Below are positions 3,886-55,251 of a stretch of DNA of 64,000 bases, in pieces (positions within the stretch are counted from its first letter, which is position 1; the number at the start of each line of letters is the position of its first letter). Location: IMG/VR virus record IMGVR_UViG_3300037993_001242, positions 62,001-126,000 of that record; one strand, 5' to 3'. A program made the translations under genes and the position numbers. A model generated the notes under the pieces. That model saw only the letters and a program-made list of their open reading frames with translations, was not told the DNA's origin and did not search any database. Origin of the DNA: a virus.

Positions 3886-3901
3886 CCGGCGATTATGACT
3901 G

Positions 3902-3907: not shown

Positions 3908-3914
3908 GGTAGCT

Positions 3915-4373: not shown

Positions 4374-4447
4374 TGCCTTTTTCATTTGGTGTATTTACTC
4401 CACAAGGTGTTTTTCCTTGAAGTTAAAATACGCAAAATCCATATAAA

Positions 4448-4903
4448 ATGAACAACATAATCAAAGCAACAACTGTCGGTTTGATCTGCACTGCGTCGCT
4501 GCTGGTCTGTCCGCTGTCCACGAAGGCGCAGTTCGTAACCAATCTCGTCACCTTCAGCAATGTGGTCATTCGGTCATCATCAGATGTCACCGGCCCTTAC
4601 ACTAATTTGTTTACGTTGCCGGATGTTACCCTTGAGTACCGGTATCACGTGGGATCGCTTCAACCGTTTTTTTATCATTTTAAGCTGAGCACGCCGGTCA
4701 TTGATGCTGATCTGTTTGAAACCAGCTTGACGCTCCAATATGCCTTCAATGCGGGCGGCCCTTACGATGACATTTATACTTATCCAACCATTGCTGTTAC
4801 CAATCCGGCAGGAAACGCCTTTTTCCGTTCTGCTTTCGATTTGACCGACACTAATTTTGTGTTCGTTGACCCTTACACCGTTCAGTTTGTACCGCCGCCA
4901 TAA
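4448..4903 (+). CDS. Secreted protein of verrucomicrobial style
   Basis: 151 residues with a clear signal peptide (basic MNNIIK, hydrophobic core, cleavage after STKAQ). The mature part is Thr/Ser/Asn/Tyr-rich and beta-like. It contains VTGPYTNLFTLPDVTLEY, a phrase style common in exported proteins of Verrucomicrobiota. No enzyme motif is seen. It ends 3 nt before the CCA end of tRNA-Arg(TCT) on the opposite strand. Confidence 0.7.
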   Translation: MNNIIKATTVGLICTASLLVCPLSTKAQFVTNLVTFSNVVIRSSSDVTGPYTNLFTLPDVTLEYRYHVGSLQPFFYHFKLSTPVIDADLFETSLTLQYAFNAGGPYDDIYTYPTIAVTNPAGNAFFRSAFDLTDTNFVFVDPYTVQFVPPP

Positions 4904-4906
4904 AAT

Positions 4907-4983
4907 TGGCACTCCCGGCAGGATTCCAACCTGCGACCTTGAATTTAGAAAATTCCTGCTCTATGCAACTGAGCTACGGGAGC
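4907..4983 (-). tRNA. tRNA-Arg(TCT)
   Basis: The acceptor GCTCCCG pairs with CGGGAGT, then G and CCA. The anticodon loop TTTCTAA sits in a weak AU stem. The T-loop TTGGAAT has G56 and the D-loop AGTTGCATA has C19. Confidence 0.92.
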
Positions 4984-5016
4984 AAAAACGCGCAGCCGAA
5001 TCAACGGCTGCGCGTA
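4984..5016 (-). terminator. Rho-independent terminator after 5036-5923
   Basis: The stem ACGCGCAGCCG/CGGCTGCGCGT with a 6-nt loop is followed by TTTTT on the minus strand, just before tRNA-Arg(TCT). Confidence 0.75.
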
Positions 5017-5035
5017 AAATAGGCACAGCAACGAG

Positions 5036-5923
5036 TCAAGGTGAAGCTAACCTGTAAAATTTATGTGGTACTGACGGGGAAGCAGGAATAATGACTCCTG
5101 ATGCCGAAGTCATCGTCGTCGCGTAACCATCACTATTAGTCACTGTATATCCACATGAGCCATTGGTCACGATTGGAATCCCTTGTGAATCATACACGAC
5201 GTAAACGATATTAGCCAATTTAGACGCACTATAGCCAAAATACGTACCCCAATCAGAAACTGGTTGGGATACCCAGTTGGGAATAGACGTATAGCTTACC
5301 CAACCGGTGGCCGAATAAATTTCCTGACTCCATTGTACCAAATCAGTGGTGGACTCAAGATGTGCCGTGGTCATGGGATTGCCCTGTGTATCAAGGATTC
5401 CGGCCCGTGGAACAAAATTGGTAAAAGTGGTGCTGAATGACCAAATGTAAATGTTCGTCTGCCAGTCAGTCCATCCATTGTCAATGGCGCTCCAATAGTA
5501 AACAGTAGAATTGTTGGTCGCTATCAGGGCTTGACTGCTGTTGGTCTGGCCACTATTCTCCGCTGCCGGTTGCATTATAGCCTGCTGTTTAAGCAGGGGA
5601 GGGAAAAACGGCGGCATTGGAGGGAAAAACGGCGGTGGTGGAGGCGCTGGAGTCGGGGGCGGCTGCGCCGGAGTCGGTGCCGGAGTCGCTGGCGCAGACG
5701 GAAGACAACTGTTCAACCACATTACAAGGACTACGCCGCCTGCCGTTACAATCACTATCATAATTGCACCACATATTTGCACCGTTTGGTTGGGCTGTAC
5801 GGGGTTAGCCGCAAGCTGTTTGTTGGTATTCTCAGCATACACAGGCAGTATAAGCAGGATGACCATGAGGCTGACTGCGATCAAACGACACATTATTGAT
5901 TGAGTGAATTTTGATGTTTTCAT
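5036..5923 (-). CDS. Exported proline-rich protein with C-terminal FYRLASP
   Basis: 295 residues. A signal peptide or anchor covers residues 1-30 and a second hydrophobic helix about 48-72. A run of Pro/Ala repeats (about 78-105, PTPAPPPPPF-type) is followed by a Ser/Thr/Tyr-rich domain (LESTTDLVQWSQE) ending PHKFYRLASP. The STTDLVQW and terminal FYRL pattern is typical of exported verrucomicrobial proteins, so this looks acquired from, or adapted to, the host envelope. It may be co-transcribed with 5928-6194 (4-nt gap). Confidence 0.7.
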   Translation of the reverse strand: MKTSKFTQSIMCRLIAVSLMVILLILPVYAENTNKQLAANPVQPNQTVQICGAIMIVIVTAGGVVLVMWLNSCLPSAPATPAPTPAQPPPTPAPPPPPFFPPMPPFFPPLLKQQAIMQPAAENSGQTNSSQALIATNNSTVYYWSAIDNGWTDWQTNIYIWSFSTTFTNFVPRAGILDTQGNPMTTAHLESTTDLVQWSQEIYSATGWVSYTSIPNWVSQPVSDWGTYFGYSASKLANIVYVVYDSQGIPIVTNGSCGYTVTNSDGYATTMTSASGVIIPASPSVPHKFYRLASP

Positions 5924-5927
5924 AGAC

Positions 5928-6194
5928 TTACTTTTTGAGCAATGCTGCGAGCGCCATCAAGAAACAGCCTGCATTCACACAGTGAAGACCAATCTGACCG
6001 ACTTTGGGTGAAACCCACGGGGAGACAAAAAACCCCACTATTAGAATGTAAGCAATCCAGCAGGCAGTAAATATGACAAGCCGATTTTGGTGCTCCTTAC
6101 ACCAATTTCCGTAAGCTTGCCATCCGCGTTGGAGCGGCGCACGCACCGACCTGATTAGTTTTTCAGGTTTCATACCCAAACTGTATGCGTCCAA
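5928..6194 (-). CDS. Small two-helix membrane protein
   Basis: 88 residues with two predicted membrane helices (about 42-62 and 68-86) and a basic N-terminal tail. An internal ATG at 6173 (MKPEKLIRS) is an alternative start. It sits 4 nt upstream of the proline-rich exported protein. A holin or envelope role is possible but unsupported. Confidence 0.6.
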   Translation of the reverse strand: MDAYSLGMKPEKLIRSVRAPLQRGWQAYGNWCKEHQNRLVIFTACWIAYILIVGFFVSPWVSPKVGQIGLHCVNAGCFLMALAALLKK

Positions 6195-6266
6195 CAGGCG
6201 ATTGTCAACAGGAAATTACAAGACTGTAAGCATACGGTGTAAACGATTTGTATACAATAAGTTAAA

Positions 6267-6342
6267 TGGCTCCAGAGGCTGGGCACGATCCAGCAACATC
6301 CCGGTTAACAGCCGGGTACTCTACCAATTGAGCTACTCTGGA
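6267..6342 (-). tRNA. tRNA-Asn(GTT)
   Basis: The acceptor TCCAGAG pairs with CTCTGGA, then G and CCA. The anticodon stem CCCGG/CCGGG holds CTGTTAA. The T-loop ATCGTGC has A54 and T58. Confidence 0.92.
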
Positions 6343-6351
6343 ATAAAAAGC

Positions 6352-6444
6352 TTTTCAGCGACGGCAGTGCCTATGCCTGCGGCCCTGTAGGGGCGGCTTT
6401 GCACACAGTAGGCTTGCCGTGTGCAATCTTTACGCCGCTGAAAA
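6352..6444 (-). ncRNA. Candidate pseudoknotted RNA
   Basis: A 9-bp outer stem pairs TTTTCAGCG (6352-6360) with CGCTGAAAA (6436-6444). Inside, GCACAC (6401-6406) pairs with GTGTGC (6419-6424), while the loop between them (6409-6419) pairs with 6362-6373 in two 5-bp runs. That is an H-type pseudoknot, or two alternative folds. A further small hairpin lies near 6380-6395. The strand is assumed from the neighbouring tRNAs. No class is recognised. Confidence 0.4.
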
Positions 6445-6445
6445 A

Positions 6446-6518
6446 TGGTCGCGCCGGACGGAGTTGAACACGTCATCTCGCACTTCCGGGTGCCGCTCTA
6501 ACATTAAGCTACGGCGCG
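6446..6518 (-). tRNA. tRNA with 6-nt anticodon loop, probably Pro-type
   Basis: The acceptor CGCGCCG pairs with CGGCGCG, then A and CCA. The stem GCAC/GTGC encloses only CCGGAA. If U33 is deleted the anticodon is CGG. C1:G72 and A73 match the three tRNA-Pro genes nearby. The T-stem has one bulged base. Confidence 0.6.
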
Positions 6519-6526
6519 TTTTAAAA

Positions 6527-6602
6527 TGGTCGGGACAACCGGGCACGATCCGGCAACCTCTCGGCCCCAAACCGAGCGCTCTACCAATTGAGCTATGCCC
6601 CG
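6527..6602 (-). tRNA. tRNA-Pro(TGG)
   Basis: The acceptor CGGGGCA pairs with TGTCCCG (C1:G72), then A and CCA. The anticodon loop is TTTGGGG. The T-loop ATCGTGC has A54 and T58. Confidence 0.93.
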
Positions 6603-6796
6603 TCAGCAATGTAAAAATTGTTTTCTTCTCGCGGACATTCCTCATTCAAAAGAACCAAGCATCGCCGTATGCTTACATCGGACGTTCCATAACTTTCCGT
6701 GCAATGATCGCAGCGAGAACACGTCACAATAACGCTTGGTACCGGCCCGTGATCACCGTCCAATTCTGTTTCTTCAACAGTACATTCAACACGCAT
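6593..6796 (-). CDS. Small zinc-ribbon-like phage protein
   Basis: 67 residues from ATG 6796. It contains VTCSRCDHCTE (CxxC-type) plus later cysteines (RRCLVLLNEECP), suggesting a small zinc-bound fold. The N-terminus MRVECTVEETELDGDHG is acidic. The stop lies inside the 5' end of tRNA-Pro(TGG). It belongs to a class of short Cys-rich cargo genes among phage tRNAs. Function is unknown. Confidence 0.6.
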   Translation of the reverse strand: MRVECTVEETELDGDHGPVPSVIVTCSRCDHCTESYGTSDVSIRRCLVLLNEECPREENNFYIADGA

Positions 6797-6814
6797 ACAG
6801 CGTAGAACTGAAAA

Positions 6815-6891
6815 TGGTCTGGGTGACAGGCTTCGATCCTGCAACCTCGTGTACCCGAAACACGCGCTCTACCAGATTGAGCTACACCCAG
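6815..6891 (-). tRNA. tRNA-Pro(CGG)
   Basis: The acceptor CTGGGTG pairs with CACCCAG, then A and CCA. The anticodon loop is TTCGGGT. The T-loop ATCGAAG has A54. Confidence 0.93.
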
Positions 6892-6900
6892 TTGAAATGG

Positions 6901-7200
6901 TCAGTCAATGATGACCGGAGAATCTGAATTAAGCCATGCAAAAAGAGTTGATCCTTTGTGCTGCTGAATAAGCAAACGCGACTGATGCCCGCAGCACGAG
7001 CAGTCAAAATTGATTATTATTGCGTTTCTACGCCCCTGCATTTTTGTTTCTGGAACTGCCTCACTTTTTGGAGGATACGTACCTTGGATGGTCATCTTAA
7101 TTCCGTCGCCATCTTCAAAATGGGGTCTCTCATATATTTCGATCATGCTGTGGTGCATGTCGGCTGTTTCCCGACAGTTTGGACAAGCTAGTGCGTTCAT
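6901..7200 (-). CDS. Hypothetical protein with two CxxC knuckles
   Basis: 99 residues. CPNCRE near the N-terminus and CSCCGH near residue 71 are arranged as a split zinc ribbon around a beta-rich middle. H16 and H17 (MHHSM) could add ligands. It lies between tRNA-Pro(CGG) and tRNA-Pro(GGG). No enzymatic motif is seen. Confidence 0.65.
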   Translation of the reverse strand: MNALACPNCRETADMHHSMIEIYERPHFEDGDGIKMTIQGTYPPKSEAVPETKMQGRRNAIIINFDCSCCGHQSRLLIQQHKGSTLFAWLNSDSPVIID

Positions 7201-7220
7201 ACGCCCACAAGAACGTAAAA

Positions 7221-7297
7221 TGGTCGGGATGACGGGCTTCGATCCCGTGACCTCCAGTCCCCCAGACTGGCGCGCTACCTGACTGCGCTACATCCCG
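7221..7297 (-). tRNA. tRNA-Pro(GGG)
   Basis: The acceptor CGGGATG pairs with CATCCCG, then A and CCA. The anticodon stem CCAGT/ACTGG holds CTGGGGG. The T-loop ATCGAAG has A54. Confidence 0.93.
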
Positions 7298-7298
7298 G

Positions 7299-7586
7299 TT
7301 AAGATTTGGTTGGTATGGCATCAGCCAGCCGCGCCAAAACATCACCATGACAGGGCATCGGCCAGCACCAGCAACCCAACGTTTTGTCCTTCAATTCGTG
7401 CAGGCTGGCCAACAACTCTGGCTGAGTTTTAATCCAGTCTTCATACATGGCGATGACTTCGTCGCGGGTGCCGTCGGCTCCGATCCGGTAGGGGTTGCCC
7501 CACTTTGAACCTTCTGGAAAATCACGCGTACCTCGTCCGATGTATACATCGAATTTACTGTGCTTGCAATGGACAACTTTAGTCAT
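7299..7586 (-). CDS. DUF4326 protein
   Basis: 95 residues from ATG 7586. It shows the DUF4326 pattern: VYIGRGT, KWGNPYRIG, then an Arg/Glu helix and the C-terminal LGCWCWPMPCHGDVLARL. This domain is common in phages and has no known biochemical function. The CWC and CHGD cluster may bind metal. Confidence 0.85.
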   Translation of the reverse strand: MTKVVHCKHSKFDVYIGRGTRDFPEGSKWGNPYRIGADGTRDEVIAMYEDWIKTQPELLASLHELKDKTLGCWCWPMPCHGDVLARLADAIPTKS

Positions 7587-7598
7587 ACTCCACAAGAA

Positions 7599-7754
7599 CC
7601 AAAAGTTCCCCAAGCGGCAGGAGCACCGCCCGCCCGCGTTACTTCGTCACTGCCTGACTAACAGACCGTTGCGATGCTCAGCTTGGGTAAATTGGCGGCC
7701 CTCGATATTACGGCGGCTGCGCCGCCACAAGAAGTGGCCACTTCTTGTATCTCA
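7599..7754 (-). ncRNA. Structured non-coding stretch with palindrome
   Basis: A 7-bp stem CCCAAGC/GCTTGGG encloses about 75 nt (near 7599-7689) with an inner hairpin GTTA.GTCA/TGAC.TAAC. To its right are GGCGGC/GCCGCC and an uninterrupted 22-nt palindrome whose half-site is ACAAGAAGTGG. No ORF is convincing. It may be an RNA with a terminator, or protein binding sites. Confidence 0.35.
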
Positions 7755-7761
7755 GGCCAAA

Positions 7762-7839
7762 TGGCGGGACGTACGGGCTTCGATCCCGTGACCTTCCGGT
7801 AGACAGCCGGTTGCTCTAGCCAGACTGAGCTAACGTCCC
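7762..7839 (-). tRNA. tRNA-Asp(GTC)
   Basis: The acceptor GGGACGT pairs with ACGTCCC, then G and CCA. The anticodon loop is CTGTCTA. The T-loop ATCGAAG has A54. Confidence 0.93.
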
Positions 7840-7844
7840 AAAAA

Positions 7845-8150
7845 TTATGATCCGACGAGTTCGTCAGTGCCTTCCCACGTAAACTCCGAAACCGGCAGGT
7901 GCATTCCACACTGACAACAGTAGGTCGCACCGTAAAATTTTGGGTCGCGAGCGTAAGTTTCAGCGATGGCCAAGGCCATGGTCGTTTTCGCCCGGCAGGT
8001 ATTGTGGATGTACGACTGACGTACCGGTCGAATGAATCCTTTGGCGCGCTCCTCTTCGGACAGCACGAGGTATTTTTTCATCTGCGGTGTCGGCACTTTG
8101 TCCGCACCGTATCCTAAATCGGGGTCTTTTGGATCAGTTGTCAAACTCAT
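7845..8150 (-). CDS. Conserved hypothetical phage protein
   Basis: 101 residues from ATG 8150, chosen because a TAGTTA box lies just upstream. It contains LSEEERAKGFIRPVR, then LAIAETYARDPKFYGATYCC and a C-terminal WEGTDELVGS. Proteins with this block order are frequent in unrelated phages and have no known role. CCQCGM suggests a metal site. The longer upstream frame overlaps a plus-strand phosphatase gene and is rejected. Confidence 0.75.
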   Translation of the reverse strand: MSLTTDPKDPDLGYGADKVPTPQMKKYLVLSEEERAKGFIRPVRQSYIHNTCRAKTTMALAIAETYARDPKFYGATYCCQCGMHLPVSEFTWEGTDELVGS

Positions 8151-8155
8151 ACCTT

Positions 8156-8161
8156 TAACTA
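8156..8161 (-). promoter_or_regulatory. TAGTTA box before 7845-8150
   Basis: CGTAGTTAAAGGT is followed by ATG. The spacing is 5 nt. Confidence 0.5.
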
Positions 8162-8231
8162 CGTTGGCGGGCTTGGCTGTTAATTCAGCCCGTAGCGCGC
8201 CACGCGGCGGATCAGGCCGCAAGCCCATAAA

Positions 8232-8322
8232 TGGTGGCAACGGCTGGAGTCGAACCAGCGGTGTTTTCCTCTTGGGTAGCGCTTTTACAGAGCGTTGTCT
8301 TCGCCACTTGACGCACGTTGCC
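8232..8322 (-). tRNA. tRNA-Tyr(GTA)
   Basis: The acceptor GGCAACG pairs with CGTTGCC, then A and CCA, with a long variable arm as for bacterial tRNA-Tyr. The anticodon loop is CTGTAAA. The T-loop TTCGACT is canonical. Confidence 0.93.
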
Positions 8323-8323
8323 G

Positions 8324-8329
8324 TATTTA
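8324..8329 (+). promoter_or_regulatory. TATTTA box before 8334-8846
   Basis: CGTATTTAAAAC is followed by ATG, 4 nt from the box. It overlaps the edge of tRNA-Tyr on the other strand. Confidence 0.5.
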
Positions 8330-8333
8330 AAAC

Positions 8334-8846
8334 ATGAAAATCATTTACGCTATGGTTGTGGCTCTTGTCCTGACTGGCTGTGCAACTCAGCGGGGATTCC
8401 CGCCGAATAACGGCATCGGCAACTTTGACCGCTTGGACGACAAAGTCTATCGCGGCGCACAACCCTCGCACGAAGCCATTGCCAAACTGGCAAAAGCTGG
8501 CGTGACCAGAGTAATCAATCTCCGCCTGCCCGGCGATACGGCACCGTACGAAAAATCGGCGTGTCGGGCCGAAGGCATCGAATACTTCAACGTACCCATT
8601 GGTGGTTTTTCCGCTCCCACTGATGCCCAAGTACACCGGGTATTTTCTTTGATTGAGACCGCCCATGGGCCGGTCTACATCCATTGCCAGTGGGGCTGTG
8701 ACCGCACCGGAACCATGTGCGCCTGCTGGCGAATCCATCACGATGGCTGGAGCAATGCACAGGCACTACAGGAAGCCGTCATTTACGGCCTGTCACCTTG
8801 GGAACAGAGCATGAGGTACTACATCCTGCATTACCACGAAAAATAA
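8334..8846 (+). CDS. Dual-specificity phosphatase-like lipoprotein
   Basis: 170 residues. The signal peptide ends in the lipobox LTGC (lipidated Cys16), so the product should sit on the envelope. The fold follows the DSP/PTP family: VYRGAQPSHEAIAKL, VTRVINLRLPG, and the P-loop HCQWGCDRTG with catalytic Cys118 and Arg124. An acidic general-acid residue is likely in the SAPTD loop. Related small lipoprotein phosphatases exist in bacteria. A role in modifying an envelope substrate is inferred. Confidence 0.85.
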   Translation: MKIIYAMVVALVLTGCATQRGFPPNNGIGNFDRLDDKVYRGAQPSHEAIAKLAKAGVTRVINLRLPGDTAPYEKSACRAEGIEYFNVPIGGFSAPTDAQVHRVFSLIETAHGPVYIHCQWGCDRTGTMCACWRIHHDGWSNAQALQEAVIYGLSPWEQSMRYYILHYHEK

Positions 8847-8932
8847 CGGGCAAGGTTTTGGCATCGGGTATGCTGGGTTTCCCCGGCGGTTTGTATCAAT
8901 AACAAGATAACCGACAGTCCATTCGGCCCGTA
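8844..8932 (-). ncRNA. Repeated stem-loop element, copy 4
   Basis: The stem TACGGGC/GCCCGTTA is followed by CGAA, GTCGG/CCGAT, GGTTATC, and a hairpin GGTT.TTGT/ACAA.ACC with the 7-nt loop TATTGAT. CCTT precedes the closing strand. It lies between tRNA-Trp and the phosphatase gene. Confidence 0.5.
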
Positions 8933-8935
8933 AAA

Positions 8936-9011
<76 letters not shown>

Positions 9012-9016
9012 AAAAG

Positions 9017-9457
9017 TTATTCTTCATCTGCTGATTCCCAGTTGTTGCAGCAACCGCCCCAAAAAATCGGGCCGGTTACTTCTTTGCAGGAGCCTTCGTC
9101 CTTGCCGCCGGAATAATACTCGCAGTTGCCACAATGTGTCGGCCCATCCTCGATGTATCCGACGGCTTCTTTGGGCAGCAACTCCAGTGGCGTCGCACCT
9201 TCTTTCAGGAAAGTTTTGCCCCCGATGAAGGCTGCGCACACGCCATGTTCACCATCACAAGCTGGCGGCGTTGTGACGAAGCACTCACTCTTGGGCGTGT
9301 TAAAGAATATGCACTTGCCACAACGCGCACCGGGATCGGTTTGACCGGATTTGTTGAGCATGTCCGGGGTCATGTATACAACCTGTGCTTGGAGCATTTT
9401 GCCATCTTCGGCTTCATGCTCTTGCAGTCCCATCACCCGGCGCAAAATCGGATTCAT
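9017..9457 (-). CDS. Cysteine-rich phage protein
   Basis: 146 residues with about ten cysteines in pairs: CGKCIFF, ECFVTT, ACDGEHGVC, HCGNCEYY, then CK and CCNNW. The spacing suggests two related metal- or iron-sulfur-binding halves, reminiscent of small Cys-rich phage proteins sometimes called HiPIP-like (weak). It has its own TATTTA box. Confidence 0.7.
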   Translation of the reverse strand: MNPILRRVMGLQEHEAEDGKMLQAQVVYMTPDMLNKSGQTDPGARCGKCIFFNTPKSECFVTTPPACDGEHGVCAAFIGGKTFLKEGATPLELLPKEAVGYIEDGPTHCGNCEYYSGGKDEGSCKEVTGPIFWGGCCNNWESADEE

Positions 9458-9461
9458 GCCC

Positions 9462-9467
9462 TAAATA
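9462..9467 (-). promoter_or_regulatory. TATTTA box before 9017-9457
   Basis: GGTATTTAGGGC is followed by ATG. It lies downstream of a strong hairpin on the same strand, so the gene should have its own transcript. Confidence 0.55.
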
Positions 9468-9483
9468 CCGGTCTGAAAATAGA

Positions 9484-9513
9484 AGGCCGGGGGGCTTCCA
9501 CGCTCCCCGGCCT
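9484..9513 (-). terminator. Strong GC hairpin, probable terminator
   Basis: AGGCCGGGG pairs with CCCCGGCCT around a short loop. It is T-rich on both sides (AAGTTTT on plus, TTCTATTTTC on minus). It separates the permuted tRNA region from the gene at 9017-9457. Confidence 0.65.
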
Positions 9514-9580
9514 AAGTTTTATACCAAGGCGTTTTTGAACTTTGATCGCCAACAGCCTGCTGTCCTTAGCTTAATCCCGG

Positions 9581-9666
9581 CGCTTTACCGCTGAGCTACA
9601 CCGCCATAGTTTTATGGGGGCGGTGACTGGATTTGAACCAGCGACTCCGGTTTGTTAGACAACACC
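9581..9666 (-). tRNA. Second candidate permuted tRNA, anticodon possibly CTA
   Basis: On the minus strand a 3' half (T-arm GCTGG/CCAGT with loop TTCAAAT, acceptor CACCGCC, C, CCA; ends 9615) is followed by a 9-nt spacer and then a 5' half (acceptor GGCGGTG at 9605-9599, TA, D-arm GCTC/AAGC). The acceptor strands pair 7 of 7. The anticodon arm is less sure: GGT.TT/AAACC with a bulged G around GTCTAAC would give CTA (reads UAG). Confidence 0.5.
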
Positions 9667-9740
9667 TGTCAGGTCACGTCTTGCTATTGTGTAACGCACT
9701 AGGTGCGCTACGGTTGAGCCTTCGGGTGATAGCCTGACAT
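9667..9740 (-). ncRNA. Structured leader before the second permuted tRNA
   Basis: TGTCAGG/CCTGACA closes a domain of about 72 nt that holds a hairpin CGCAC/GTGCG. It lies immediately upstream of the 3' half of the permuted tRNA. Copies of TTGAACTTT flank the whole region at about 9535 and 9742. Confidence 0.35.
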
Positions 9741-9818
9741 TGAACTTTAATTTTAACCATCACCTTGAGCTTGGGCGAGCGGCCCGTAAAATCAATTTAC
9801 AGGCCGCCGCACCCGAAA

Positions 9819-10013
9819 TTATGGTTTGCCCTCCAGTTGTTTCAGCCGTTCTTTATAGATTTTTTCAATCTCGCTTTCCCTTATACCCCGAAGATTGCGG
9901 CCACCGGCATTCATACACGTCGCGTGCTCTTGCGTATTCGTGGTCAGCCTCTGCGCTTTTTCCATTTCAGCACGCCGCCACACGTCCAGTCTGCGTTTTG
10001 CGCTTTCGTCCAT
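9819..10013 (-). CDS. Small charged hypothetical protein
   Basis: 64 residues from ATG 10013, five nt after the TAG of the upstream gene, so probably co-transcribed with it. It is almost entirely helical and charged (SAKRRLDVWRRAEMEKAQRL at the front, EIEKIYKERLKQLEG at the end), which suggests a short coiled coil. No family is recognised. Confidence 0.6.
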   Translation of the reverse strand: MDESAKRRLDVWRRAEMEKAQRLTTNTQEHATCMNAGGRNLRGIRESEIEKIYKERLKQLEGKP

Positions 10014-10017
10014 AAGA

Positions 10018-10782
10018 CTATTTGTTGCCACTGAACACGAAGCTCAGCAACTGCTTGCCGATCTTCTTGGTCAGGTCGACTTCTTCGTCGTTGGCCCGTG
10101 AGCGCGCCCGGCGGACGGCTCGCGTCAGGATTTCGATCCGGTCGAGCAGTTCGGCTTTTTCCGCCGGGGTGATCAACGAAGACCACTCCTTTTCCTCAAC
10201 CTTGCCTACCGGCACATCGATGGCCAGCAACTGAGTCTGAGCCGGATGTTCCTTGGTGGCGTCGTACAGCACAATCGGCTTGGACTGTTTCTGCGTGCGA
10301 ATCTTGATCACTTCGCGTGCTTTGTAAACACCAGCGCCGCGCTGCGCATCCGCCACGAAACCCTTGGCCGGATCGAGCGTCGGGATGACCGCGATCAACT
10401 GCTGGATTTCCGTGCAGCGCTTTTCAAGCTCCAGCAGCGCCGTCGCCGGGACATCCTTAATTAGCACGGTACCCGCGTCGTCATCAAGCACGATGTCGGC
10501 CTTCGCCCGTGTATTGGCGTCAGCCACCTGATACGAGGCGTCGAGTGCCTTGGTCAGATGACCCTGAATCCATGTCAGTTCCTTGCCGACCGAGGTCTGC
10601 AAGAAGGACTGGGCTTCGGTCTGCGGCTCGGCTTTTTCCGCGTCGGGTTTGAAGACGACGTGCTTTTCCTCGAAAAGATGCCGCTTCTTTTCAAAGGTGT
10701 TGGCCTGATCGGTGCGGCACTTTTCGGCCTGCTGTTTCAGGCTGGTTTCAACTGCCAAAAGTTCATGTAGTTTGGTTGACAT
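10018..10782 (-). CDS. Conserved protein of unknown function (DUF7873-like)
   Basis: 254 residues. The block order matches a family found in phages and actinobacteria: an N-terminal KLHELLAVE helix, then VLIKDVPATALLELEKRC, IPTLDPAKGF, a Lys-rich KIRTQKQSKPIVLYDAT, EHPAQTQLLAIDVPVG and a C-terminal coiled-coil ILTRAVRRARSRAND. It ends in TAG. Function is unknown. The DUF number is from memory and should be checked. Confidence 0.7.
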   Translation of the reverse strand: MSTKLHELLAVETSLKQQAEKCRTDQANTFEKKRHLFEEKHVVFKPDAEKAEPQTEAQSFLQTSVGKELTWIQGHLTKALDASYQVADANTRAKADIVLDDDAGTVLIKDVPATALLELEKRCTEIQQLIAVIPTLDPAKGFVADAQRGAGVYKAREVIKIRTQKQSKPIVLYDATKEHPAQTQLLAIDVPVGKVEEKEWSSLITPAEKAELLDRIEILTRAVRRARSRANDEEVDLTKKIGKQLLSFVFSGNK

Positions 10783-10829
10783 AGTGGTTGGAGTGTATAC
10801 GCGTTAGATTTCTTGTCAACTTAAAATTT

Positions 10830-10905
10830 TGGTGGAGCCGAGGGGGTACGATCCCCTGACCTCCTGAATGCCATTCAGGCGCTCTGCCAACTGAGCTACG
10901 ACCCC
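10830..10905 (-). tRNA. tRNA-Ala(GGC)
   Basis: The acceptor GGGGTCG pairs with CGGCTCC and includes the G3:U70 alanine identity pair, followed by A and CCA. The anticodon loop is ATGGCAT. The T-loop ATCGTAC has A54 and T58. Confidence 0.93.
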
Positions 10906-11184
10906 AAAAGGGTGCTGCTGCCCGTTTTTCGCAGGCGTCGCCTTCCCGTTCACGGCTGGTTAGGTCTCAATTCTCCAGACGCTTATGGACTTGGCGCAAT
11001 AGTTGGCATCACGCACACGCCGCCCAAGACCGGGGCGTGCTCCGCGCTTAGTACACCAACCCGCAGCATAAATTAAAGAGCCGGGCCGAGTTTGCGACAG
11101 CGATTGCAACCGCCGCGCCTGATCGTGTGGCCTCTGCGTCCACCTTCCGGTGCGCAACCGGAATACTCCCCGGATACCGTCGTC
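10906..11184 (-). other. Non-coding gap between two tRNA-Ala genes
   Basis: 279 nt, GC-rich, no convincing ORF. It has several inverted repeats: TTCCGGT/ACCGGAA near 11150, a GGCGTCGCC palindrome near 10940, and CGGGGCGTGC near 11035. It may encode a structured RNA. No tRNA, tmRNA or RNase P signature was found. Confidence 0.4.
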
Positions 11185-11259
11185 TGGTGGAGCCGATGGG
11201 GATTCAACCCACGACCTCCCGCGTGCGAGGCGGGCGCTCTGGCGCTGAGCTACGACCCC
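11185..11259 (-). tRNA. tRNA-Ala(CGC)
   Basis: The acceptor GGGGTCG pairs with CGGCTCC (G3:U70), then A and CCA. The anticodon stem CCCGC/GCGGG holds CTCGCAC. The T-loop TTGAATC has G56 and the D-loop AGCGCCA has C19. Confidence 0.93.
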
Positions 11260-11555
11260 AAATGAATTCCCCAGATGTCAGGAATCACCCAACATAGTCG
11301 CAAACGTGAGTCTTTATGAGTATTCGGCCATTTGGCTCCATCGGTAGCACTCCGACTTCGATACCAAAGCAGGGCTTTACCTGCAATACGGGTTGGTTTG
11401 ATTGGCACTTCCCGTAAACGACGTTAGCTGACCGAGCTACCTAATCAGCCTTAGCCACATTACGTTTGCCATGCTCTTCCCACGCTACGAGACGATTCCA
11501 AGCTTACGGAACCTGCCTTTGCCCCCACCAAAGAGGCTTCAGCCACTGGAGAAAT
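11260..11555 (-). other. Non-coding gap with tRNA-like fragments
   Basis: 296 nt without a convincing ORF. On the minus strand GATTAGG followed by TAGCTCGGTCAGCTA resembles a tRNA 5' end, GCAGG/CCTGC resembles an anticodon hairpin, and TACGGG/CCCGTA is an 18-nt-loop hairpin. I could not assemble these into one tRNA in normal or permuted order. Confidence 0.35.
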
Positions 11556-11631
11556 TGGTGGAATCGACCGGGAACGATCCGGCAACTTTCGGCTTGCAAA
11601 ACCGACGCTCTACCGATTGAGCTACGACCCC
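11556..11631 (-). tRNA. tRNA-Ala(TGC)
   Basis: The acceptor GGGGTCG pairs with CGATTCC (G3:U70), then A and CCA. The anticodon loop is TTTGCAA. The T-loop ATCGTTC has A54 and T58. Its 5' end overlaps the TAG stop of the gene at 11622-12071. Confidence 0.93.
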
Positions 11632-12071
11632 TTTGAAATTGATGCGCGATACGCTTTGAGTTTGACCCGCCGGTCATCGTCAAACGGAATTTCACCGCCC
11701 AAATGGACGCCTTCGTAAATGGCCTCCCGGAGCAGCAGTTCAACGTTCAGCGATTCCATGGCTTCGAGCAGCAGGTTGTCGCTTTGGTCTCTGGTCAACG
11801 TCGCCAACGTCCACGTACCGTCGCTGTTCAAAACTTGCAGGACGTTGCGGTAAGCGCCGTCGTGCAGGACGGTTCCCATCCAATAGGTGCCGAAAGGCGG
11901 AATGAGATTCCAGATCGCTTTGGGCGTGCTGGCCCCATCCGACGGGGAACCGGTCGGCATCATGTATTGGACGCCGTTTTTGGCCACGTACACGAGGTCT
12001 TCCAGCAGAACGATATGCCTGCCGTCACTGGTTTCGTTGGCAATCGTCGGCTTTTTGAATCCATATTCCAT
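11622..12071 (-). CDS. DUF1353 family phage protein
   Basis: 149 residues. It shows the DUF1353 signature: a beta-rich start, then PSDGASTPKAIWNLIPPFGTY and the conserved HDGAYRN motif near the middle, followed by helices. The family is common in phages near lysis or morphogenesis genes and has no proven function. The TAG stop lies inside the acceptor stem of tRNA-Ala(TGC). A TAGTTA box precedes it. Confidence 0.85.
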   Translation of the reverse strand: MEYGFKKPTIANETSDGRHIVLLEDLVYVAKNGVQYMMPTGSPSDGASTPKAIWNLIPPFGTYWMGTVLHDGAYRNVLQVLNSDGTWTLATLTRDQSDNLLLEAMESLNVELLLREAIYEGVHLGGEIPFDDDRRVKLKAYRASISKGS

Positions 12072-12075
12072 GCCC

Positions 12076-12081
12076 TAACTA
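12076..12081 (-). promoter_or_regulatory. TAGTTA box before 11622-12071
   Basis: CGTAGTTAGGGC is followed by ATG. It is 11 nt from the CCA end of tRNA-Gly. Confidence 0.5.
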
Positions 12082-12091
12082 CGCAACAAAA

Positions 12092-12165
12092 TGGAGCGAG
12101 TGAACGGTGTCGATCCGTCGTATCAGCCTTGGCAAGGCCGCGCTCTACCGTTGAGCTACACCCGC
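12092..12165 (-). tRNA. tRNA-Gly(GCC)
   Basis: The acceptor GCGGGTG pairs with CACTCGC, then T and CCA. The anticodon loop is TTGCCAA. The T-loop ATCGACA has A54. Confidence 0.93.
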
Positions 12166-12231
12166 GTCACGCCGCGACATAACCGCGCTAAATCACGTTT
12201 CTAACACGTGCCAATCATGCAGCGGCAAAAA

Positions 12232-12307
12232 TGGCTGCCCGAAGTGGGGACGATCCACTACTCTTCTGATCCAGAGTCAGACGTGTTACCAGTTACACCA
12301 TCGGGCA
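12232..12307 (-). tRNA. tRNA-Gln(CTG)
   Basis: The acceptor TGCCCGA pairs with TCGGGCA, then G and CCA. The anticodon stem TCTGA/TCAGA holds CTCTGGA. The T-loop ATCGTCC has A54 and T58. Confidence 0.93.
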
Positions 12308-49231: not shown

Positions 49232-49540
49232 TTATATCTGCTTTTTGAAGGCATCGGAGAAGCGCTTTTTGCCGAAGGCCCGCTGGAATGCCGGGCTGGC
49301 TTGCTCGATCAGCGCATCAACCTTTTTACACAGCCGTCGCAGTTTGCGATCCCGATTGCGCTGGCATCGCAGCGCGATCTGCATCTTTGGATGACGATAA
49401 CCCTTTTGTGTGCGCTTGCGCGACAACTTTTCAAGCTCCATCTTTTCAGCCACCGTGGCAGTGGAAAGCGCCTCTTTCACCACCAGTTCGCGAAAGCGCG
49501 CCTCGTCTTTCCGGTTGAGCTTGTATTTTGGTTCGTACAT
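49232..49540 (-). CDS. Small basic hypothetical protein
   Basis: 102 residues from ATG 49540 (MYEPKYKLNRKDEARF). It is very Lys/Arg-rich and helical (KLSRKRTQKGYRHPKMQIAL, QRNRDRKLRRLCKKVD), which suggests RNA or DNA binding. It is followed on the left by a gap and the membrane protein gene. Confidence 0.6.
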   Translation of the reverse strand: MYEPKYKLNRKDEARFRELVVKEALSTATVAEKMELEKLSRKRTQKGYRHPKMQIALRCQRNRDRKLRRLCKKVDALIEQASPAFQRAFGKKRFSDAFKKQI

Positions 49541-49559
49541 CTGACTCGAAGAACGCAAT

Positions 49560-49633
49560 TGGCGCTTCCGACGGGGATCGAACCCGCGTGCTCCGTTTTA
49601 GAGACGAATGCCTTGCCACTAGGCTACGGAAGC
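49560..49633 (-). tRNA. tRNA-Sup(CTA), amber suppressor
   Basis: The acceptor GCTTCCG pairs with CGGAAGC, then G and CCA. The anticodon stem TTCGT/ACGGA holds CTCTAAA, so the anticodon CTA reads UAG. The D-loop and T-loop (TTCGATC) are canonical. It lies alone, far from the main array. Confidence 0.9.
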
Positions 49634-49696
49634 GTTTTATCTATTATTCACGATTTTGCGTTGACTGTCAAATATCGTCGTATACATTTAGCTGGC

Positions 49697-50326
49697 ATGA
49701 GCATCATTACCGCTGCCGCCCAATTAGCTGCGCGCTACCACAAAGAACAGACGCGCAAAAACAATGGCCGTCCTTACATCACGCATCTCATTCGCGTGGC
49801 GGGACGGGTGGCCACCCTTCCCGGAACGGAAGACGCTGACGTGGCTGGAAGTTTTCTCCACGACATACTGGAAGATATTCCCAAAACCCTCGATGTCTTC
49901 CACCAGATGCAGTTTGAAATTTTGGAAACGTGCGGGCAGGAAACCCTCGATATTGTGGTCGCCCTGACCAATCCCAGCAAGGGCATGAAACTGCCCCGTC
50001 CCGAACGCAAGCAGATTGACCGCGATCATCTGGCCAAATGCCCCCGGCGGGTCAAGCGGATCAAGCTGGTCGACCGGATCGACAACGTTGAAGAGTCCAT
50101 TGTTGACTTGTCGCTGGGTCTCGACAAAAGCACCAAATTCAACGAAATATACGCGAACGAATCCGAACAACTTTTGACTGAAGCCCTGTGCGGTGCAGAC
50201 GTGGAATTGGAAACGGAATTGGCGCGCAGCATCCAAAATTTGCGCTTCGTCTGTTCCCGCATCAAGCTGGGCCAATCAATTGCCGAATTCCGCGACGCGC
50301 TTCGAGGAAAAATCCTTAGTAGTTAA
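49697..50326 (+). CDS. HD-domain hydrolase, RelA/SpoT (MESH1)-like
   Basis: 209 residues from ATG 49697. The HD-fold ligands are in place: YITHLIRVAGRV (His30), GSFLHDILED (HD at 55-56) and KLVDRIDNVEES (late Asp). Length and layout match small ppGpp hydrolases of the SpoT/MESH1 type, but other nucleotide substrates are possible. If it degrades ppGpp, it would keep the host from a starvation response. Confidence 0.8.
   Translation: MSIITAAAQLAARYHKEQTRKNNGRPYITHLIRVAGRVATLPGTEDADVAGSFLHDILEDIPKTLDVFHQMQFEILETCGQETLDIVVALTNPSKGMKLPRPERKQIDRDHLAKCPRRVKRIKLVDRIDNVEESIVDLSLGLDKSTKFNEIYANESEQLLTEALCGADVELETELARSIQNLRFVCSRIKLGQSIAEFRDALRGKILSS
50320..50325 (+). promoter_or_regulatory. TAGTTA box before 50332-50772
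   Basis: TAGTAGTTAATACAC is followed by ATG. The box overlaps the stop of the HD gene. Confidence 0.4.
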
Positions 50327-50772: not shown

Positions 50773-51201
50773 TCACGCAGGCTGCGGTTCCAAAGCAACA
50801 GCGTACTCACGGCGGGGAATTGCCCGGATACCGTAGGTGCGGAATATGTTGGCAAAATTGACCGAAGAAAGCGGCTTGGACAGGAAACCCACCACTCCCA
50901 GATTCGCGCCATCCATACAGCCGGTGGCCTCAGCGCGCTCGGCAACCACGATGACCGGCAATGTGGGCTTTTCTTCCTTGATGTAGCGCAAAACTTCGAT
51001 GCCGCTTTTTATTGGCAGTGACAGATCGAGAAAAACAACGTCGTAGGGCTTTTCCCCAACAAAATCAATGGCGCGCTCGCCGTCGATGACCCAGTCAATG
51101 TCGCATTCGTACTGATCACGAATGTTGACTAAAAAAAGATTGCCGACCGTGTAGTCATCCTCCGCCAAAAGAATACGCGGTGGCCGCAACAATTTTGACA
51201 T
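50773..51201 (-). CDS. Single-domain response regulator
   Basis: 142 residues from ATG 51201, which overlaps the TAA of the next gene upstream. A complete receiver fold: acidic pocket LLAEDDYT (14-16), phospho-acceptor Asp59 in VVFLDLSLP, and Lys109 in GFLSKPLSS. The usual Thr/Ser of the switch is replaced by Ala in VIVVAERAE. No output domain. It may tap or compete with host two-component signalling. Confidence 0.85.
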   Translation of the reverse strand: MSKLLRPPRILLAEDDYTVGNLFLVNIRDQYECDIDWVIDGERAIDFVGEKPYDVVFLDLSLPIKSGIEVLRYIKEEKPTLPVIVVAERAEATGCMDGANLGVVGFLSKPLSSVNFANIFRTYGIRAIPRREYAVALEPQPA

Positions 51202-51563
51202 TAAGGCTTCAACAAGTGCCATAAAGCATCAAATACCATTTTGAGTAACGCGGATAAAACAACCAGACCAAGGGCGGCAACCACTGCCCATTTGCCCGAA
51301 ATCAACTGCTTCCAGTCCGATAACGTAGCTATGGTCTTGCTGGTCTCAGTTATGCGCCGGTCGCAATCCAGCACGTCTTTGTTGACCTTGAGCAGCGCGC
51401 TGACCAACCAGTTGTTCTGGTTTTCCAACCTGCTCATTGTCTCCACTAAATACCGCTCGCTCTCCGAAAGCTTACACAGCAAATGGGGCGGTATCGTGCT
51501 TTTGAATTCTTTAAGCTCAAGTAGCTCATAGGCCCGTGGCGCGCTCGGTTGCTCATTGCTCAT
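51201..51563 (-). CDS. Coiled-coil membrane-anchored protein
   Basis: 120 residues. A helical, coiled-coil-prone region (about 35-88, LENQNNWLVSALLKVNKDVL) is followed by a C-terminal membrane helix (about 93-113). Coupled to the response regulator (TAATG). A role in anchoring or sensing is possible but unsupported. Confidence 0.65.
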   Translation of the reverse strand: MSNEQPSAPRAYELLELKEFKSTIPPHLLCKLSESERYLVETMSRLENQNNWLVSALLKVNKDVLDCDRRITETSKTIATLSDWKQLISGKWAVVAALGLVVLSALLKMVFDALWHLLKP

Positions 51564-51648: not shown

Positions 51649-52080
51649 ATGGATGACATCACAAAATTTGTAACCGAAAGCAACCGTATTGAAGGCATAC
51701 GGCGGCGGCCAACACGGGCCGAACTGGAGGAATTCCAAAGATTTTTGGCTCTGGAGGAGGTCACCGTCGAGGAGTTGGAGCACTTCGTAAGGGTTTATCA
51801 GCCCGGCGCAAGACTTCGCGACCAATTCGGTCTTGATGTCCGTGTGGGCCGCCATCTGCCACCGCGAGGCGGCCCGGAGATACGCAATCATCTGCTTGAT
51901 CTGCTGCTTAATGACGACCTGAGTGCTTACGAGCAGCACGTTGCTTACGAAGTCCTGCATCCCTTCACCGACGGCAACGGACGTTCAGGCCGAGCACTCT
52001 GGGCGTGGCGCGTGAGAGATTTTCCTTTGGGCTTTCTTCACACGTTTTATTACCAGACACTGGACTCGTCGCGTCATTGA
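51649..52080 (+). CDS. Fic-domain protein with internal inhibitory motif
   Basis: 143 residues. The Fic core EVLHPFTDGNGRSGRALW (His104) matches HxFx(D/E)GNGRxxR, the AMP-transfer active site. Near the N-terminus, TESNRIEGIRRR contains S-x-x-x-E-G (11-16), the inhibitory helix motif, here on the same chain. It would modify (AMPylate) a host protein when inhibition is relieved. It is short for the family. Confidence 0.88.
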   Translation: MDDITKFVTESNRIEGIRRRPTRAELEEFQRFLALEEVTVEELEHFVRVYQPGARLRDQFGLDVRVGRHLPPRGGPEIRNHLLDLLLNDDLSAYEQHVAYEVLHPFTDGNGRSGRALWAWRVRDFPLGFLHTFYYQTLDSSRH

Positions 52081-52125
52081 ATTTTCCCGTTGACAGACTG
52101 TCTTTCGGCGTATACAGTTTCAGGA

Positions 52126-52722
52126 ATGCTCCTGACCGGAATCAAAGAAATTGAACGCCGAATAAAGTGGCCTGTCGCCCGCTGGAATGGCAATTGCTAC
52201 GCCGTCGCCGTGGCTATTTTCAAGGCCAAGCTGGTTCCTGCCAAATCCCATGTCCGTTACGGCGTCTGGCACGGGCCGATTGCTTCCACCAGTTCCTTCG
52301 CCGGAAGACCTTTTACCCATCATGGATGGATTGAACTGCCCGATAACCAAATTTACGATCCGACGCGCTTTGTTTTTGAAGCTCAACGACCCTACATCTG
52401 GATTGGCACCGATGAAAAGGGCTACTATGATGTTGCCGGTCAGCGGTTGAACAAAATCTTTTATCGTGAATGCCCGGCTGCCGAAGAAAAACCTGTCAAG
52501 CTGACCGACCGACAACGCCAAGTCCTCGGACAGTTCCTCCCCTCCATCTGCAAACGTGATCCTGATTTTGGTCAGTTGATGTGGTTGGGAAACATGCCGC
52601 CGGATGAAATGAACGGCCAAGCCAAAGCTGTATACATTGTCCTTGAGGAATTAAATTTACAGGCATTGATCCCACTGGATTTCCGAAGATATGTTCTGGA
52701 AGACGACAAAGTTTACGCATGA
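52126..52722 (+). CDS. Papain-like cysteine hydrolase candidate
   Basis: 198 residues from ATG 52126. RWNGNCYAVAVAIFKAK (Cys24) followed by FTHHGWIELPDNQIYDPT (His65 or 66, Asp78) is the Cys-His-Asp order of papain/NlpC-like or transglutaminase-like folds. The C-terminal half is helical. It overlaps the kinase-like gene by 4 nt, so they are probably expressed together. A protease, amidase or deamidase function is inferred. Confidence 0.5.
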   Translation: MLLTGIKEIERRIKWPVARWNGNCYAVAVAIFKAKLVPAKSHVRYGVWHGPIASTSSFAGRPFTHHGWIELPDNQIYDPTRFVFEAQRPYIWIGTDEKGYYDVAGQRLNKIFYRECPAAEEKPVKLTDRQRQVLGQFLPSICKRDPDFGQLMWLGNMPPDEMNGQAKAVYIVLEELNLQALIPLDFRRYVLEDDKVYA

Positions 52723-53837
52723 CCGGTAGAACTTTAACCCAAGCCTTTCGCGTCCTGAACAAGGCGATATGCCCGGAAGATGTCTTCGGCCCACTCGACG
52801 ATGATCCCCCGGCGTCACTTAAAACGGAGTACCGGGAATGGGCCAAATTGACGCATAGCGACAGATATACTGGCACAGCCGACAAGAAAAAAGCGCAGGA
52901 TGCTTTCGTGTTGCTCCAGAAGTGGCACAAGCTCGCCGAACAAAAAGTCAAGGACGGCAAGTACGGCGACCGCAGCGCCATAACCGAGATAACGGTCAAA
53001 ACCAAAACCGGTGTCTACACGGTTACTGAGCGGGTCGCGTCCGGTGATCTATGCGAAATCTACGGTGGCACGAATCAAGCTAAAGAACGCGTCGTGCTCA
53101 AAGTCACCCGTACACCGGCCAATAACGACCTGATCGCCAATGAAAGTGCCCAGCTTCGCTATCTGTGGGACAACCCCAAACGGGCGAAATTGAAGTTGAT
53201 GCAGCACATTCCCCAACTGCTGGACGCTTTCGAGTTGAAGCAGGACAAGATCACCAAGCGGGTCAACGTTTTTCGCAGACTCGACGGGTACTTCACAATG
53301 CAGGACGTGCTGGACGAATACCCGGAAGGTCTTGATCCGCATGACGCCGCGTGGATGTGGAACCGGCAGTTAAGTTCGCTGGTCATCACCCATGAGGCCG
53401 GTATCGTACACGGTGCCGTGTTGCCCCGGAATTTCATGCTCTGCCCAACCGACCCCGTGCCCCACGACGGCATCTTGATCGACTGGGCATATTCGGTCAA
53501 AACCGGCGGCCAATTCAGAGCCATCTGCCCGGACGAAAAGGTCAACTATCCGCCGGAAATCTTTGTCAAAAAACCCGCCAGCCCCGCCACCGACATCTAC
53601 ATGTCAGCGGTCTGCATGATCCGGCTGCTCGGTGGGCAAATGACCAAGAGCGGAGCGGAGTTGCCGCCCACGGTACCACGTCCGATCAAAGGTTTGCTGC
53701 GCTCGTGCTTGCTGTCTGTGGCGCATCGGCCCAAGGACGTGTTCGAGGTCTTCCGCGACTTTGAACAGATTTTGAAACAACTTTATGGCCCGCGAAAATT
53801 TCGTCCGTTCTCAATGCCACGAGCAACAATTAAATAA
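52719..53837 (+). CDS. J-domain-like / protein pseudokinase fusion
   Basis: 372 residues. About 20-80 resembles a J-domain with HSD (46-48) instead of HPD (EYREWAKLTHSDRY, then KKAQDAFVLLQKW). About 95-350 is a kinase fold: ERVASGDLCEIYGGT (glycine-rich loop), VVLKVTR (Lys128), and AGIVHGAVLPRNFML, where the HRD catalytic Asp is Ala233, then LIDWAYS (metal Asp255). Loss of the catalytic Asp suggests a pseudokinase or unusual transferase. Confidence 0.75.
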   Translation: MTGRTLTQAFRVLNKAICPEDVFGPLDDDPPASLKTEYREWAKLTHSDRYTGTADKKKAQDAFVLLQKWHKLAEQKVKDGKYGDRSAITEITVKTKTGVYTVTERVASGDLCEIYGGTNQAKERVVLKVTRTPANNDLIANESAQLRYLWDNPKRAKLKLMQHIPQLLDAFELKQDKITKRVNVFRRLDGYFTMQDVLDEYPEGLDPHDAAWMWNRQLSSLVITHEAGIVHGAVLPRNFMLCPTDPVPHDGILIDWAYSVKTGGQFRAICPDEKVNYPPEIFVKKPASPATDIYMSAVCMIRLLGGQMTKSGAELPPTVPRPIKGLLRSCLLSVAHRPKDVFEVFRDFEQILKQLYGPRKFRPFSMPRATIK

Positions 53838-53840
53838 TCT

Positions 53841-54080
53841 ATGGAAAAAACAATCCAAGAGCGTGTTCAAACGATTTTAATCGACCAACTGGGCGTTAAG
53901 CCAGAACAAGTGACACCAGAAGCCGATCTCGTCAAAGACTTGGGCGCAGATGAACTGGACATCATTGAAGTGGCCATGGCCGTCGAAGAGGCGTTCAGCC
54001 TCGAACTGCCCGACCAAGACCTTGAGAAAATCAAGACCGTCGGCGACATGGTTCAGTACATCCAAAAGCGACTTGCATAA
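53841..54080 (+). CDS. Acyl-carrier-protein homolog lacking the pantetheine serine
   Basis: 79 residues, the normal ACP length, four-helix acidic pattern: [20 protein letters not shown], then [20 protein letters not shown]. In ACPs the sequence is GADSLD; here the attachment Ser is Glu38. So it cannot carry phosphopantetheine in the usual way. It may act as a structural ACP mimic that binds ACP partners. Confidence 0.88.
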
Positions 54081-54084: not shown

Positions 54085-54261
54085 ATGGGAAAACCTGACG
54101 ATACTGAAATTGAAACTGTCGAGGAGCACCGCCATGACTGCGGTTGTGACTGCGGCTTTGATGACGAACCAACAACCGCCAGAAGCTGGGTCATATATGC
54201 TGTTGCCACCATCGGCGTGCTGATCTGTCTCGGCATCCTCTGGTACCTCCACAACCACTGA
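54085..54261 (+). CDS. Small membrane protein with Cys/His cluster
   Basis: 58 residues from ATG 54085. EEHRHDCGCDCGFDDE is a compact metal-binding stretch, followed by one membrane helix (about 35-54) and a His/Asn end. It lies 4 nt after the ACP-like gene, in the same run. Confidence 0.6.
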   Translation: MGKPDDTEIETVEEHRHDCGCDCGFDDEPTTARSWVIYAVATIGVLICLGILWYLHNH

Positions 54262-54266: not shown

Positions 54267-54743
54267 ATGGGAAAACAAGACGAAACTGACGAGGCCGATG
54301 TGCCCAACACCACCACACCACCTGAACCGGCGGAACTTGCTTACAGTGCATACTGCACCATCCGCAACTGGAAAGCCGTCAACGGCGATCCGCTTCCGCT
54401 TTGGGCCGATGTCACGGAAGACATCAAAGAAGGCTGGCGCGCCGCTGTTAAAGCTGTCCTGCCTGCGAAAGAAACCGTCGTAGATAAAGGCGAGACCCTG
54501 CGACTGGCAACCAATCCAGCAGATGTGGAATTGCCCTTGCTCACCGAGGATCAGATCAACACCATGGATTTGGAGGAAGCTTGCTCCCAACTTGGCAACC
54601 GTGTATACAAGGTCTGCCTGCTGTACGAGCAACTTGAACACCGGGGCGTCGTTCGGGGCAACGGACATCACGCGGCACAGCATATTGCGAAGCTGGCTGA
54701 AACAGAGTTACGCGAACGCTGGATTACCAAACCGGCGGCATAA
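54267..54743 (+). CDS. Hypothetical phage protein
   Basis: 158 residues. The front AYSAYCTIRNWKAVNGDPLP followed by WADVTEDIKEGWRAAVKAVL resembles a short domain common in phage proteins of unknown role. The end is helical (LEEACSQLGNRVYKVCLLYE). No catalytic residues recognised. Confidence 0.6.
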   Translation: MGKQDETDEADVPNTTTPPEPAELAYSAYCTIRNWKAVNGDPLPLWADVTEDIKEGWRAAVKAVLPAKETVVDKGETLRLATNPADVELPLLTEDQINTMDLEEACSQLGNRVYKVCLLYEQLEHRGVVRGNGHHAAQHIAKLAETELRERWITKPAA

Positions 54744-54786: not shown

Positions 54787-55251
54787 ATGGGCTATAGAGA
54801 CTACAGTCACGAAACATACACCGCCCGTATGCGGGAGCATACGGAAAAAGGAACCGATCCGTTTACGCACAGTGCGGAAATCCGCTCTGGCCACACGGAG
54901 ATGAAGGTTCACGAAAAACTCGATCCGTCCAAGAAAAACAAGGCGGGCCGGAACATCCGGGAAAGCTTTGACAGCGACACCCATCCCGAAAGTCACCCTG
55001 TTGCCGTCATCTTCGACGTAACCGGTTCCATGGCGAGCGTTCCCCGCATCTTCGTGGAAAAACTCGGCACCCTCATGGCGACGCTGGTCAAGAAGGACTT
55101 CCTCCAGCATCCGCACATCCTGTTCGGTGCGGTCGGCGACGCCACCGTCTGGATCGACGCCGAAACCCACCTGCGCTCGCACGGCGATCAGATTTTTGAT
55201 CTCACAAAAGTTCGAGCCTTTTTGACTGCCGCCCGGCCCTTCATAAAATAG
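54787..55251 (+). CDS. vWA-domain protein, shorter than usual
   Basis: 154 residues from ATG 54787. A von Willebrand A fold begins at about residue 70: PVAVIFDVTGSMASVPRIFV has the MIDAS motif D77-x-T-x-S, then HPHILFGAVGDATVWIDAET. Related phage and bacterial proteins that I recall continue for another 100-150 residues after this point, whereas this one ends soon after. So it may be truncated. Confidence 0.7.
   Translation: MGYRDYSHETYTARMREHTEKGTDPFTHSAEIRSGHTEMKVHEKLDPSKKNKAGRNIRESFDSDTHPESHPVAVIFDVTGSMASVPRIFVEKLGTLMATLVKKDFLQHPHILFGAVGDATVWIDAETHLRSHGDQIFDLTKVRAFLTAARPFIK

Follow-up and report, generated by a model that had tools for sequence, protein, structure and literature searches.

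A phage-encoded acyl carrier protein with glutamate at the prosthetic-group serine position, a candidate cargo-free docking module with Ser-less counterparts in other phages

In an acyl carrier protein (ACP), the Ser of the DSL motif receives the 4'-phosphopantetheine, and the viral gene considered here encodes an ACP from which this Ser is absent, Glu38 being found instead. What could a phage ACP that presumably cannot be charged be used for? In the present study, we analysed a window of 64,000 nucleotides, positions 62001-126000 of a 199,098-base IMG/VR virus record, the rest of the record being searched by protein family only. The question is raised by the following two features.

53841..54080, plus strand: Ser-less acyl carrier protein of 79 aa, assigned by HMM families and predicted fold.
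53952..53954, plus strand: codon 38 of this gene, GAA (Glu), at the phosphopantetheine-Ser position; residue 1 of helix II in the model.

An earlier note, made from the letters of the DNA, had described the product as a normal ACP apart from Glu at the prosthetic-group Ser position, and both parts of this description were borne out. In the translation of ORF 53841-54080 the DSL motif reads DEL, and there is no alternative Ser nearby: Ser53, the sole Ser of the protein, is located 15 residues downstream of codon 38 and outside the DSL motif. GAA differs from the Ser codons (TCN/AGY) by two or three bases, therefore a single sequencing error cannot account for Glu38. An error of sequencing or assembly at a Ser codon is made conceivable by the metagenomic assembly from which the record comes, but it demands at least two substitutions within one codon and the same Ser-less state is seen in isolated phages, so that we consider it very improbable.

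The window ACP was matched by PF00550 (1.8e-14; 54.2 bits vs cut-off 20.8), TIGR00517 (89.8 bits vs cut-off 70.45) and PHROG 5934 (1.3e-21). Since the family-library scores are above their cut-offs, an automatic pipeline would label this protein a working ACP. The fold was predicted by AlphaFold2 with a mean pLDDT of 93.9, and ACPs of the PDB match the model at TM ~0.9 (9ka7_C, 2ehs). Helix II of the model comprises residues 38-52 with Glu38 at its start, where this acidic first residue is predicted to cap the helix. The acidic docking residues of helix II are present as D37, D40, E43 and E49, which correspond to D35, D38, E41 and E47 of E. coli. Thus, the protein has the sequence family, length, predicted fold and acidic helix II of bacterial AcpP (PF00550, TIGR00517) and differs from it in the phosphopantetheine Ser. 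The closest cellular ACP, from a Verrucomicrobiae bacterium (61% identity), bears Ser, and in a tree built without the Ser column, which is weakly resolved over its 70 columns, the window ACP clusters with Ser-bearing ACPs of Verrucomicrobiota/Lentisphaerota. A direct viral scan with the window ACP found no close viral relatives. The simplest reading of these comparisons is a host-derived gene in which the Ser may have been lost later.

The genes that surround the ACP are listed below.

49301..50326, plus strand: HD_4 (SpoT/MESH1-type) hydrolase, PF13328 2.6e-9, in the flank and in another gene block; its true start is probably internal.
52090..52722, plus strand: 210-aa protein, overlapping the kinase-like gene by 4 nt.
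52719..53837, plus strand: J-domain and protein-kinase-like protein of 372 aa, PHROG 3043 4.5e-37, ending 3 nt before the ACP.
54085..54261, plus strand: 58-aa protein containing a single hydrophobic stretch; the gap from the ACP is 4 nt.
54267..54743, plus strand: 158-aa protein with the N-terminus MGK, as in the 54085..54261 protein.
54787..55251, plus strand: truncated vWA-like protein; compared with its intact 331-aa homologue in phage L209, similarity ends at residue 114 of the latter.

By family search, the 199-kb record contains no second ACP, and searches of it for a phosphopantetheinyl transferase (PF01648), a ketosynthase (PF00109) and a PF01553 acyltransferase likewise found none. 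The kinase-like protein 52719-53837 (~28% to the kinases of Bixzunavirus mycobacteriophages) has HGA in place of HRD in the catalytic loop, likewise in several relatives, and it is therefore predicted to be a pseudokinase, probably a conserved one; the direct viral scan gave no close viral relatives of it. The vWA gene is reduced to about its first third, and a look through the window for the remainder found nothing. Two other phages, mycobacteriophage Alice and L209 (225 kb), have a vWA gene immediately after the kinase-like gene and, close behind it, an adenylosuccinate-synthetase-like (PurZ-like) gene, with no ACP; in the window, the ACP and the two small genes are placed between the kinase-like gene and the truncated vWA gene. 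A SpoT-type HD hydrolase 3.5 kb from the ACP had also been pointed out in the earlier note. The hydrolase is real and lies at about that distance, but opposite-strand genes (50773-51563) intervene, so that by position it does not form one transcription unit with the ACP, and no TGS domain was detected in it. Near the ACP operon there are also a response-regulator receiver protein (50773-51222, minus strand; PF00072 8.7e-19) and a Fic-family protein (51649-52080, plus strand). The window further carries an array of 25 tRNA genes (237-12307, minus strand) and a separate tRNA (49560-49633, minus strand) with the anticodon CUA, which was given the tRNA-Pyl label by ARAGORN and is a possible amber suppressor.

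Is the loss of the Ser peculiar to this gene? Comparison with the ACPs of other phages, which the earlier note had proposed, revealed recurrence of the loss. With search patterns that do not touch the residue, a viral scan recovered 42 ACPs (39 with Ser, 3 with Glu and nothing else). In a second scan, in which the residue was left free, 12 of the 101 matches listed were Ser-less (89 Ser, 4 Asp, 3 Glu, 2 Pro, 1 Val, 1 Ile and 1 Leu); both scans are samples in which near-copies were counted more than once. A viral scan directed at DLGADE(L/F)D showed that Glu-ACPs occur in several groups dissimilar to one another, and both GAA and GAG are used as the Glu codon. At the Ser position of one marine clade, Pro, Val and Ile are seen as well. 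Between Ser and not-Ser, about 13 changes were counted on a weakly resolved tree that does not contain the Ackermannviridae, at least two of them being forced by the starred branches. Among the named phage ACPs that are near by BLAST, those of PhiXhv-12, Bajun, ZS04, 10AMN, P-HM2 and CcrMagneto were tried as Ser-less candidates and rejected, as all keep Ser. The ACPs compared from PHROG 5934 (Erythrobacter ZS04, Xanthomonas PhiXhv-12 and Brevundimonas Bajun) are stand-alone and phage-encoded, as is the window ACP, but unlike it they keep the Ser. The function of phage-encoded stand-alone ACPs has been called unclear (PMC5463345), and our search of open-access papers found no description of Ser-less ones.

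The same state was found in isolated phages. In the Serratia phages phiMAM1, 2050H1, 3M, Kevin and KNP4, Glu is at the Ser position in five of five, and a related ACP-like protein of the Ackermannviridae is present in about 270 phage records. In a sample of this family, the residue was acidic in 10/10 and Ser in none: Asp in Vi01, SFP10 and PhiSH19, and Glu in RA148, LIMEstone1, YX22, pSal-SNUABM-02, May, Magnus and phiMAM1. The sampled proteins are mostly annotated as acyl carrier protein, the remainder as hypothetical. The Ackermannviridae ACPs (Vi01, SFP10, LIMEstone1, phiMAM1 and kin) thus resemble the window ACP in the acidic residue, but they are ~105-113 aa long in all against its 79 aa, with a longer N-terminal part in most, and they have other gene neighbours and no close sequence relation to it. 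Furthermore, the rIIB protein of Aeromonas phage Aswh_1 (L233 2483-3727) opens with a domain that resembles ACP and bears Glu (PF00550, 32.3 bits vs cut-off 20.8), which is followed by an HTH region, and the rIIB of ZPAH1 is 97.8% identical over the ACP-like part. A 636-kb phage (L207 3617-4737) has two tandem ACP-like genes with Glu in both and an IF-3 gene directly after them. In three marine phages (L018, L029 and L040), the Ser-less ACP gene is directly upstream of an Rz-like spanin gene, and an endolysin gene also precedes the ACP in L018; another marine setting is beside a tail-sheath-stabiliser gene. By Glu or Asp at the Ser position together with a kept docking helix, the window ACP belongs to an informal group that we propose here, the Ser-less acidic phage ACPs. 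The recurrence in unrelated phages suggests that the ACP fold may have been kept as a docking piece rather than as a cargo carrier.

As a control, cellular genomes of the phyla of the two located genomes were searched, which covers ACPs of the DLGADE(L/F)D type only. The Glu form of this motif was not found as an ACP in 588 genomes (289 Verrucomicrobiota and 299 Pseudomonadota). The six cellular matches to the Glu pattern, five from Verrucomicrobiota and one from Pseudomonadota, were unrelated sequences and not ACPs. The Ser form, by contrast, was present in 36/39 Verrucomicrobiota and 40/40 Pseudomonadota genomes. Within these samples, Glu in an ACP of this motif thus seems to be restricted to viruses. 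A separate observation concerns circularly permuted ACP-like ORFs in a Verrucomicrobia MAG and a Methylococcaceae MAG (L009 ~4890-5306 and L010 ~4965-5252), which begin just after the Ser position and finish just before it, the attachment Ser being missing at the break.

We found that dN/dS among the five Serratia phage Glu-ACP genes is 0.03-0.25, and that values in the marine lysis-cassette group are mostly similar with one higher pair. These two groups of Glu-ACPs, to which the window gene does not belong, are under purifying selection. When 15 Ser-less ACPs were compared with 102 Ser ACPs, the Ser column alone differed strongly (p 3e-19), and conservation of the helix-II docking residues, acidic as well as hydrophobic, was equal in both; in the Ser-less set (E. 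coli numbering) D35 was kept in 14/15, D38 in 15/15, E41 in 14/15, M44 in 14/15 and E47 in 14/15. Relaxation of the acyl-pocket residues gave a hint only at E. coli position 59 (p 0.045), which was non-significant after correction. As judged from the sequences, Ser-less ACPs are retained, and their partner-binding face too. These findings also bear on the view that the window gene is a captured host ACP which lost its function and is drifting. In the weakly resolved ACP tree it has a longer branch than its cellular neighbours, and the adjoining vWA gene is truncated, as such drift would have it; but the frame is intact, the docking residues are kept, the predicted fold is confident and this very change is also found in groups that evolve under purifying selection, so that we regard drift as rather unlikely.

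The predominance of acidic replacements admits another explanation, in which Glu mimics the negative charge of the Ser-phosphopantetheine phosphate and partners read the protein as permanently holo-like. Helix N1 positions favour Glu, Asp and Pro, and these three make up most of the replacements. As helix II begins at Glu38 in the model, this preference accounts for the bias and mimicry is not needed; moreover, Pro, Val and Ile were also found in the marine clade. The replacements are mostly Glu or Asp, and the phosphate of the arm contacts an Arg in the MukB structure (PMC8669397), which would suit mimicry, but we hold it to be unlikely, slightly more so than drift.

Because the attachment site is absent and the docking face is kept, an unloadable ACP that docks or competes is the best available reading. 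We propose, with a probability of about 50%, that the window gene is a bacterial ACP captured by a phage and turned into a cargo-free docking module, either a decoy or an adaptor. The main rival gives the Ser-less ACP a role among phage proteins (in the window, the kinase-like and vWA proteins), which it would serve as an internal adaptor or as a structural component, host ACP enzymes not being its target. The window ACP is located between genes that are direct neighbours in other phages, and the LIMEstone1 ACP comes after a vWA gene annotated 'confirmed structural protein'. A putative ACP appears once in the mass-spectrometry protein table of phage Sajous1 (PMC10892097). The lysis-cassette and tail-sheath-stabiliser settings of the marine ACPs and the fusion to rIIB also agree with a role inside the phage, whose proteins could be served by the kept docking residues as well as those of the host. 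Against it, the ACP neighbours vary between phages, other phages have the kinase-vWA pair but no ACP, the vWA of the window is a truncated one, and no sequence similarity to it was detected in the vWA-annotated protein of Ackermannviridae (phiMAM1 counterpart). We regard this alternative as possible, at a clearly lower probability than the docking module.

As a docking module, the window ACP would not be phosphopantetheinylated, hence would be unloaded, and would act by occupying ACP-binding surfaces. In the decoy variant, host lipid metabolism would be turned down or redirected; in the adaptor variant, a host ACP-binding protein would be recruited. Its likely clients would be those that accept apo-ACP, such as AcpS, glycerol-3-phosphate acyltransferase and other phosphopantetheine-independent binders. 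Apo-ACP is the substrate of AcpS. It reportedly also inhibits glycerol-3-phosphate acyltransferase more strongly than holo-ACP (PMC3896788), and both enzymes are plausible clients. The idea in the earlier note of a dead ACP competing for ACP partners thus stands in its core, but not with SpoT as the target. Clients that need the prosthetic group, namely SpoT and IscS, are unlikely: apo-ACP reportedly fails to bind SpoT (PMC3896788), and E. coli ACP S36T no longer binds IscS (PMC13343975). The nearby HD protein, with no TGS detected and in another block, does not favour SpoT either. For MukB, also named there, the suggestion holds in part. As far as is known, MukBEF belongs to gamma-proteobacteria, and the cellular ACPs nearest to the window protein are those of Verrucomicrobiota/Lentisphaerota. 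Apo- and holo-ACP stimulate MukB to the same degree (PMC8602292), which is compatible with this proposal, and where it is present it is a plausible client. E. coli apo-ACP and the S36T mutant, as ACPs without the prosthetic group, provide a working model for an unloadable ACP; however, the former is a biosynthetic intermediate and the latter a laboratory mutant, whereas the window ACP is an evolved protein.

Usually, phage ACPs are counted among the auxiliary metabolic genes and assigned to fatty-acid synthesis. If many of them cannot carry an acyl group, this annotation is wrong for those. We would give even odds to the wider proposal that phages, repeatedly and independently, made ACP into an acidic docking domain free of cargo, which occurs by itself, as a tandem pair or as part of rIIB, is conserved across the Ackermannviridae and goes unnoticed under the label 'acyl carrier protein'. 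The question can be tested directly in phages that have been isolated (phiMAM1, Vi01 and its relatives, and Aeromonas Aswh_1). If cargo-free, phage ACPs would be candidates for host takeover or for adaptors in the phage's own machinery.
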